The notes under the pieces were generated by a model. It did no database searches. It saw nothing but the letters and a program-made list of their open reading frames with translations, and was not told the DNA's origin. A stretch of DNA of 31,610 nt, taken from positions 1-31,610 of IMG/VR virus record IMGVR_UViG_3300042471_000332. One strand, written 5' to 3'. Shown here in pieces: positions 3,096 through 6,176 of the stretch. Source of the DNA: a virus. Numbering within the stretch: the stretch's first letter is position 1; every line of letters starts with the position of its first letter. The translations under genes and the position numbers were made by a program.

Positions 3096-3358
3096 GCAGC
3101 CTCCCCACGGTAGTAGGCGAGCCAGTCACCCGCAAAGTCCGAAAAGTGTTTGCGCGAATACAGCACCCCGTTACGCTCTCGGGGTGGCTTCAAGCAGATT
3201 TCCACCCGCTGCATATCGCTACGGTCATGCGCGGCCTTTTCAATAGCGGCGGCCTGTTCCCATGTGTCGCAAGCCACAACGACGACGTTGCGCTTGCCCT
3301 CAGAGACACCCCAACCGCTCATAAATTTATCAGTCATACGGACGTAATAGCGGCTCAT
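3092..3358 (-). CDS. 88-aa conserved phage hypothetical protein
   Basis: Protein beginning MSRYYVRMTDKFMSGWG and containing NVVVVACDTWEQAAAIEKAA, a form known from other phage genomes without assigned function; it looks like a small alpha/beta domain. The frame is open 35 codons upstream, but the start at 3358 is chosen because it makes an ATGA overlap with the preceding gene, like its neighbours. It ends in RGEAA, whose codons carry the start signal of the next gene. Confidence 0.83.
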   Translation of the reverse strand: MSRYYVRMTDKFMSGWGVSEGKRNVVVVACDTWEQAAAIEKAAHDRSDMQRVEICLKPPRERNGVLYSRKHFSDFAGDWLAYYRGEAA

Positions 3359-3825
3359 AACGTCACCCCTGCGGCGGTTGCCACCTCTGCGACGATGGAG
3401 TCGGGCGAGCGAGTGCGCGAACGGTTCAGCGACCAATAGCGGCCACCGATACGAACGTGCCACGCATGGATGTCCGAGGCTAATGGCTCGCTTACGTAAA
3501 AGGCTTCGGTGCTAAGAGAGTCAGACCAACACTCAAGCCTTTTGCGCGTCCACTTGCACGGCGGTAATACTTCCAACATCTCCCAAAACTTCTGTTTTGT
3601 TATTTCGACGGGAGCGTGGCAGTAAGCAGCCATCTGAGCGTCGTCTATTAGTTTGCAAGCATCATCGAACGGCAGCAGTTCCATGCTCGTGCGACCTTGT
3701 GCGCGTAGGTCTGCGAGCGTTTCCTTATCGTATTGAGTGCGGTATTCGCCCTCGCACATAACAGCAATAGAGTAAAGGTGAGTTTTACCGACCTCATAAA
3801 AGGCCATTAAATTATTTTCTTGCAT
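3355..3825 (-). CDS. 156-aa hypothetical protein downstream of the ribozyme
   Basis: The largest product of this operon. It has no recognised domain; the C-terminal part (WHVRIGGRYWSLNRS...) is basic and aromatic. The start at MQENNL is chosen for CGGAG nine bases upstream, the shared leader of this half of the operon. Its mRNA leader is unusual: bases 3844-3905 fold as a hammerhead ribozyme, and predicted cleavage would leave a 52-nt leader. It stops in an ATGA overlap with the 88-aa gene. Function unknown. Confidence 0.83.
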   Translation of the reverse strand: MQENNLMAFYEVGKTHLYSIAVMCEGEYRTQYDKETLADLRAQGRTSMELLPFDDACKLIDDAQMAAYCHAPVEITKQKFWEMLEVLPPCKWTRKRLECWSDSLSTEAFYVSEPLASDIHAWHVRIGGRYWSLNRSRTRSPDSIVAEVATAAGVTL

Positions 3826-3843
3826 TGCTAAATTCTCCGTTTG

Positions 3844-3905
3844 TAGTTTGGTCTCATCAGTAGCAGCGTGACTGCCTGACGCCTCACGGCGTTTCGACCT
3901 CTCTA
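3844..3905 (-). ncRNA. putative type II hammerhead ribozyme
   Basis: Read on the minus strand (3905 to 3844), every conserved core position of the self-cleaving hammerhead is present in the circularly permuted, type II order. Stem II is GGTC (3899-3896) with GACC (3853-3850), extended past a 3x3 internal loop by TAG/CTA (3905-3903 / 3846-3844). The core has GAA (3895-3893). Stem III is ACGCC (3892-3888) with GGCGT (3883-3879), loop GTGA, giving the required A15.1-U16.1 pair. Cleavage base C17 is 3878. Stem I is GGCAG (3876-3872) with CTGCT (3866-3862), loop TCACG, followed by CTGATGA (3860-3854). G10.1-C11.1 is present. Weak point: positions 1.1 and 2.1 are A and A. Predicted cleavage is between 3878 and 3877. 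The element fills the gap between two genes and includes the upstream gene's TAG stop. Confidence 0.8.
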
Positions 3906-4166
3906 GGAATTGGCAGACTTCACAAAGTGCGGATACGGGTGCAACGCACCATTAGACCTTTCGGAATAATGCTTTCCGTACTCATAACCCAAGCGTCTAA
4001 TGCGGTTACGGATTGCACGAGCGTAGACGTTAGAGCGCTGATGCTCTTCCTGCGTCATCAGGCGAGACGGACTTGTGGCGTGGTTATAGGCAGCGCAGAG
4101 GCCATAAATGGTGCGACCTGCTACCCACAGTTTGCCGTCAGGCTTGTATTGTGCGTAAGGCTTCAT
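3903..4166 (-). CDS. 87-aa basic hypothetical protein
   Basis: Basic protein rich in Tyr, Arg and His (MKPYAQYKPDGKLWVAGRTI..., YARAIRNRIRRLGYEYGKHY). The middle helices with many Arg suggest nucleic-acid contact, but no family is recognised. The start has CGGAG nine bases upstream in the shared leader. Its TAG stop forms part of ribozyme stem II, so ribosomes finishing this gene would disturb ribozyme folding. Confidence 0.8.
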   Translation of the reverse strand: MKPYAQYKPDGKLWVAGRTIYGLCAAYNHATSPSRLMTQEEHQRSNVYARAIRNRIRRLGYEYGKHYSERSNGALHPYPHFVKSANS

Positions 4167-4192: not shown

Positions 4193-4384
4193 TCAGGCGG
4201 CTTTAGCGATAGCGTTAAAGGCTTTCCAATAGGTCAAGGCAGAGCGGTAGTCGTCACACCTCACCTTGTCGTGTACATCGCCACGAGCGTTGCGAACGAC
4301 GACACACCACCACGAGCCAGAGCGCGAGAAATGGGTAGACCAATCGTTTTTGAAAATCTTTACTTTCGAGGATGCGTAAGACAT
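4193..4384 (-). CDS. 63-aa hypothetical protein
   Basis: Small basic protein (MSYASSKVKIFKNDWSTHF..., WWCVVVRNARGD) with a likely beta-hairpin then a helix (DYRSALTYWKAFNAIAKAA). The frame extends upstream, but the ATG at 4384 is chosen for the CGGAGAACCTAGCAATG leader, matching neighbouring genes. The upstream extension would overlap the small membrane protein gene. Function unknown. Confidence 0.78.
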   Translation of the reverse strand: MSYASSKVKIFKNDWSTHFSRSGSWWCVVVRNARGDVHDKVRCDDYRSALTYWKAFNAIAKAA

Positions 4385-6027: not shown

Positions 6028-6176
6028 ACAATCTAAGGCACTAAACGTATCCCTAGACGCTTCCGCCTCGGCACACAGGCTCCACGGTTGTTGGAGATCG
6101 CGGCCTCCCGGCAGGATCACCCTGCACGTTGCTCTTGCTCTTCCTTCCTTGCCAAACCTTCTGTTACAGTCCGCTT

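Follow-up and report, generated by a model that had tools for sequence, protein, structure and literature searches.

Between two small genes of a tailed phage lies a gap whose minus-strand RNA can be drawn as a hammerhead ribozyme, which raises the question of whether this is a genuine self-cleaving RNA and what it would do for the operon that carries it. The window, by which we mean the whole stretch of DNA analyzed, is a 31,610-bp IMG/VR virus record encoding a P22-type portal, a major head protein and a terminase. By terminase, the nearest named relatives are Phage DSL-LC05 and the Manatee Spring podovirus (ctNMl277), both at 69%; neither contains a match to the covariance model described below, and a nucleotide search of named phages with the 1.2-kb neighborhood of the hammerhead found no relatives. 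A run of small genes on the minus strand of the record forms a leftward operon, and the hammerhead lies between the stop codon of one, encoding 87 amino acids, and the ribosome-binding site (RBS) of the next, encoding 156. No PHROG or Pfam family was found for either gene. An RBS leader of ∼20–24 nt, of the CGGAG..CUAGCAAUG type, precedes six genes of the operon, and the hammerhead is present at one of the six. The gene listed as 4453–4193 probably has its true start at 4384. Elsewhere on the minus strand, the adjacent small genes 2247–2555 and 2552–2758 look like tandem paralogs (repeat pairs D2 and D5) with a common C-terminal ATGEAA; at their junctions, GGAGGCCGCATGA, the RBS, stop and start are merged, an arrangement different from that of the hammerhead junction. 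We found no promoter- or terminator-like site near the hammerhead, and rejected a terminator or internal promoter as the reason for its hairpins.

Read 5′ to 3′, the minus-strand RNA consists of UAG, AGA, GGUC, GAA, A, CGCC, GUGA, GGCG, U and C up to the predicted cleavage site, followed by A, GGCAG, UCACG, CUGCU, A, CUGAUGA, GACC and AAACUA (Table 1). CUGANGA, GAAA with A15.1-U16.1, C17 and G10.1-C11.1 are all present, so that every conserved core position named in an earlier sequence-only reading was found on this strand. Its assignment to type II also holds, since loops close stems I and III only and stem II is open. The same reading had placed the element between two genes, as we find it, with the 87-amino-acid stop upstream and the RBS and ATG of the 156-amino-acid gene downstream, and its predicted cut between 3878 and 3877, 52 nt ahead of the ATG at 3825, agrees with the position of the core. 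The extent it gave, 3844–3905, locates the element correctly, with the ribozyme proper being slightly smaller. The 1.1/2.1 pair, which is usually but not absolutely canonical, is A·A in the window copy and is followed by G·U at 1.2/2.2, two weaknesses that had been pointed out and that are both real. Two further proposals were less durable. The TAG stop can indeed extend stem II in the window through a UAG/CUA pairing, but the register is not conserved in relatives, and we rejected the extension as a feature of the class. A tertiary contact between loops III and I was likewise rejected: it is not conserved, the complementarity is no greater than in shuffles, and loop III is mostly of the GNRA (87) or UNCG type (39) among 162 tetraloops.

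Table 1. Coordinates of the hammerhead, its parts and the neighboring genes in the window
Feature	Position	Strand	Basis or remark
Type II hammerhead ribozyme, including A(−1) at 3900	3850–3900	−	Core, covariance-model match of 70.1 bits, covariation
Stem II 5′ strand GGUC (C11.1 = 3896)	3896–3899	−	Pairs with GACC at 3850–3853 (G10.1 = 3853)
Core G12 A13 A14	3893–3895	−	Invariant among aligned relatives
Stem III hairpin	3879–3892	−	A15.1-U16.1 plus CGCC/GGCG, GUGA (GNRA) tetraloop
Predicted cleavage site	3877–3878	−	C17 (3878)/A1.1 (3877), as expected from the established hammerhead mechanism
Stem I AGGCAG/CUGCUA, loop UCACG (3867–3871)	3861–3877	−	Sequence reading, covariation in relatives
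Stem I weak pairs	A·A 1.1/2.1 = 3877/3861; G·U 1.2/2.2 = 3876/3862	−	Sequence reading
Core CUGAUGA (C3–A9)	3854–3860	−	Invariant among relatives except N7
A(−1), candidate tertiary contact	3900	−	Covaries with first loop I nucleotide (U3871)
Upstream gene	3903–4166	−	87 amino acids, no known family; TAG stop = 3905–3903
Downstream gene	3355–3825	−	156 amino acids, no known family; ATG at 3825
3′ leader	3823–3849	−	RBS CGGAG and ATG start; leader type repeated in operon
RBS leader copies	3823, 4164, 4382, 4763, 5047, 5276	−	Repeat comparison in the window

A search of IMG/VR with the 87-amino-acid protein returned 22 loci, picked by the neighboring protein and so independently of the ribozyme. 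In eight of them (L004–L008, L010, L012, L013) a hammerhead directly follows the same gene. Stem I of these eight is either UAGCAG/CUGCUA or AGGCAG/CUGCCU, with compensatory changes from U-A to A-U at 1.1 and from A-U to G-C at 1.2, and further copies change pair 1.5 from A-U to G-C; comparison with related phages, which had been suggested as a check, thus supports the stem. Among these close relatives only stem I varies, and stems II and III are invariant. The hammerhead is dispensable at this junction, since L003 has the upstream gene without one and L001 and L002 have the 156-amino-acid gene without one directly preceding it, L002 carrying a copy elsewhere.

A loose core pattern matches once in the window against 0.02 matches expected, before any requirement for stem pairing. 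A covariance model built from the relatives recovers the hammerhead site with 70.1 bits and E 2e-17 and has no other match of note in the window; the window sequence is part of the training alignment, yet the element is also present in the relatives picked by way of the neighboring protein. The Rfam type II model (RF02276, Hammerhead_II), proposed earlier as a check, gives no match in the window up to E 10 and nothing reaching its 37-bit cut-off. Because close relatives with canonical pairing throughout are missed as well, this result is uninformative and refutes nothing, and we rejected the search as a decisive test. Six sites of the same layout in one phage (G020/L281) score 28–38 bits, one of them above the cut-off. 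The current RF02276 model reaches only part of the class and misses many phage members.

The class itself is large. Pattern scans of IMG/VR yield more than 300 structured sites that share this layout. One of the patterns, which specified nothing beyond the core bases and a set span for stem I, matched at least 120 contigs. Among the matches listed for it, 109 distinct new sites taken without a structure filter include 96 whose stem I reaches 6 bp or more and 89 whose stem II, of varied sequence, reaches 4 bp or more. In an alignment of 49 diverse members, 99.7% of cells are paired, a figure flattered by the choice of these members for pairing, and two-sided change is seen at 12 of 15 pairs (182 such changes versus 41 in shuffles). 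Three of the four stem II pairs covary across the 49 sequences, and sliding the partner columns by 1–3 positions lowers pairing to 29%–48%. All three helices are therefore supported by compensatory change across the class. Placement is equally regular: of 226 sites, 91% lie closely after a stop codon and 88% before an RBS and start, and both hold at 80%, compared with 4% antisense and 5% at random positions. Some phages (G019, G020) carry 9–11 copies. In prokaryote genomes, a GGUC-type pattern matches only 29 stretches across 257 billion bases. When loop I was required to start with C, 61 matches came up and none passes the structure filter; these have the look of chance pattern matches. Separately, L054 contains at 6081–6146 (minus strand) an Rfam tmRNA match just 66 nt long, in which both tmRNA ends are joined and 18 nt replace ∼326 positions of the model; this phage contig may carry a tRNA-like element there.

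Type II hammerheads of this kind have been known from phages since 2011, and the window element is a fresh example. Those described in prophages flank small genes (Perreault et al., 2011, PMC3088659), and the published ribozymes share with the window the core, the permutation with stem II open, the intergenic position by small phage genes and several copies per genome. They differ in their tertiary contact, as far as the published consensus goes: there loop I pairs with the 3′ tail in a pseudoknot (PMC3088659), whereas the class found here shows a single covarying contact between A(−1) and U of loop I. In the window the pseudoknot is absent, the longest run being 1, and among 224 sites runs of at least four Watson-Crick pairs joining loop I to the 3′ tail are no more frequent than in shuffles (4.9% versus 5.1%), so that we rejected the pseudoknot for the class. 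Covariation is found instead between the nucleotide immediately 5′ of stem II and the one at the start of loop I. Across 268 structured sites the combination is A/U in 212, U/A in 46 (34 loci) and other in 10; one pattern, with loop I set to ANNNA, enriched for the U/A class, while no pattern fixed the 5′ nucleotide. The window, with A3900 and U3871, has the commoner form. We regard this pair as a candidate tertiary contact on the strength of its covariation. In types I and III, a reverse Hoogsteen pair is known to join the helix I loop to the helix II loop (PMC6155905).

Among cultured phages, Streptomyces phages R4 (L289, NC_019414.1) and Wentworth (L290, MH019216.1) have seven and six model matches, in each case on one strand of the genome. 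Those examined closely are at gene junctions, as in the window, and one site in each phage has an identical GAAACGCCGUGAGGCGUC segment. Read by eye, the R4 copies differ in that their loop I is longer and contains a UGG opposite CCA of the tail, and they look like the pseudoknot variety. One R4 copy (L289:93–154) falls inside the annotated start of gp81 (64–354), which is therefore probably wrong.

That the element at 3850–3900 comes from a genuine lineage of type II hammerheads is, on this evidence, virtually beyond doubt. What sets the window copy apart is stem I, where the 5′ arm AGGCAG of one allele faces the 3′ arm CUGCUA of the other, giving A·A and G·U. Positions 1.1/2.1 are unpaired in 2 of 328 structured sites, so that the weakness is graver than the sequence-only reading had allowed. 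The other exception, L330 (pattern match 10784, counted on its minus strand), has C·A at 1.1/2.1 together with U at −1 and a loop I starting with A. The window copy could accordingly be a decaying or inactive hammerhead in which recombination or mutation broke the cut-side pair and stabilized a misfold that the phage tolerates. Its minimum-energy fold is indeed non-canonical, unlike that predicted for most relatives, and buries C17 and C3–G5 by pairing C17-A1.1-G1.2 with C3-U4-G5 (probability 0.74 for the pair C28-G48, numbered in the folded 62-mer). Its model score is also the lowest among same-length copies in close relatives (70.1 versus 74.8–82 bits). However, the misfold is favored over the plain hammerhead drawing by at most 1.5 kcal/mol in a folding model that ignores tertiary stabilization, and the core, stem II, stem III, A(−1) and loop I are all intact, with five pairs retained in stem I. 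We consider decay unlikely. The window copy probably cleaves at a useful rate, although its mixed stem I arms would be expected to make it slower than its relatives.

The origin of the mixed stem can be sought in the surrounding homology. Homology to L004 (94%) ends at 3848 and homology to L001 (92%) begins at 3839, which places the element on a mosaic seam. Stem I looks half-changed or recombinant, and recombination between two alleles or a halfway compensatory state would either one explain it. The ends of homology, together with the recurrence of ribozyme plus leader before different genes (L002, 90%; L079, 86%; the second copy of L008, 88%; L003, 79%), suggest recombination. Derivation of the 3′ half from an L002 copy ahead of the same gene was dropped, as the L002 ribozyme precedes a different gene.

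The same recurrence raises a second alternative, in which the conserved element mainly serves DNA, as a homology module of ∼80 bp for the exchange of small genes, with cleavage secondary. Homology to relatives with the upstream gene and ribozyme breaks at or beside the element, and the leader, as noted, precedes six genes, both as this alternative would have it. Compensatory pair changes and the A(−1)/loop I covariation, in contrast, mark selection on RNA rather than on DNA homology, and strand and stop/start placement are fixed; we hold a mainly DNA-level function to be rather improbable. Less probable still is that the A·A mismatch is an assembly chimera joining two phage populations inside a repeated ribozyme. 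The contig does come from a metagenome assembly, and the hammerhead agrees in its 5′ half with the alleles of L008:3050 and L007 and in its 3′ half with the CTGCTA allele. The alleles, however, share only ∼13 identical bases at the presumed crossover, fewer than the k-mer lengths commonly used by assemblers. Chance resemblance, or an ordinary pair of intergenic hairpins, has in its favor a fold energy of the element alone that is not unusual (z −1.6) and is refuted by conservation in independent loci, the rarity of the core, stem and A(−1)/loop I covariation, model score and placement, which leave it a negligible probability.

The best overall explanation, which we hold with good confidence, is a genuine type II hammerhead that would split the operon mRNA. 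Its sequence, stem covariation, conserved stop/start placement and strand are directly observed; cleavage, the product ends and the benefit to the phage are expected from the established hammerhead mechanism and from the triple hammerhead array of A. tumefaciens, which self-cleaves on transcription in E. coli (PMC3088659). Once transcribed, the element would fold and cut the polycistronic message between C17 and A1.1. This would leave the stem III hairpin and a 2′,3′-cyclic phosphate at the 3′ end of the 87-amino-acid message and put a stem I hairpin with a 5′-OH at the head of the 156-amino-acid message, 52 nt ahead of its AUG, so that the two mRNA halves would be open to independent degradation and translation. 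In the literature, the role of hammerheads between phage genes is still described as not known (PMC6155905, PMC10085705). We lean toward mRNA processing as the main role of this element.

We further propose, tentatively and as a pair that may well not both hold, that phages harbor a large pseudoknot-free subclass of type II hammerheads, in which a single long-range pair, A/U or U/A, between the nucleotide 5′ of a fixed 4-bp stem II and the first one of a five-nucleotide loop I would do the tertiary work, and that ribozyme-leader modules act as seams for small-gene exchange, the window showing one such module in which stem I is mixed. As a natural mismatch at 1.1/2.1, which is rare, the window copy offers a useful test of the importance of that pair. 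The A(−1)/loop I covariation is open to direct test, and cultured phages with arrays, such as Streptomyces phage R4, permit a test in vivo. For the family as a whole, the relatives give a rule of placement: stop, ribozyme, RBS and start, in the sense orientation.
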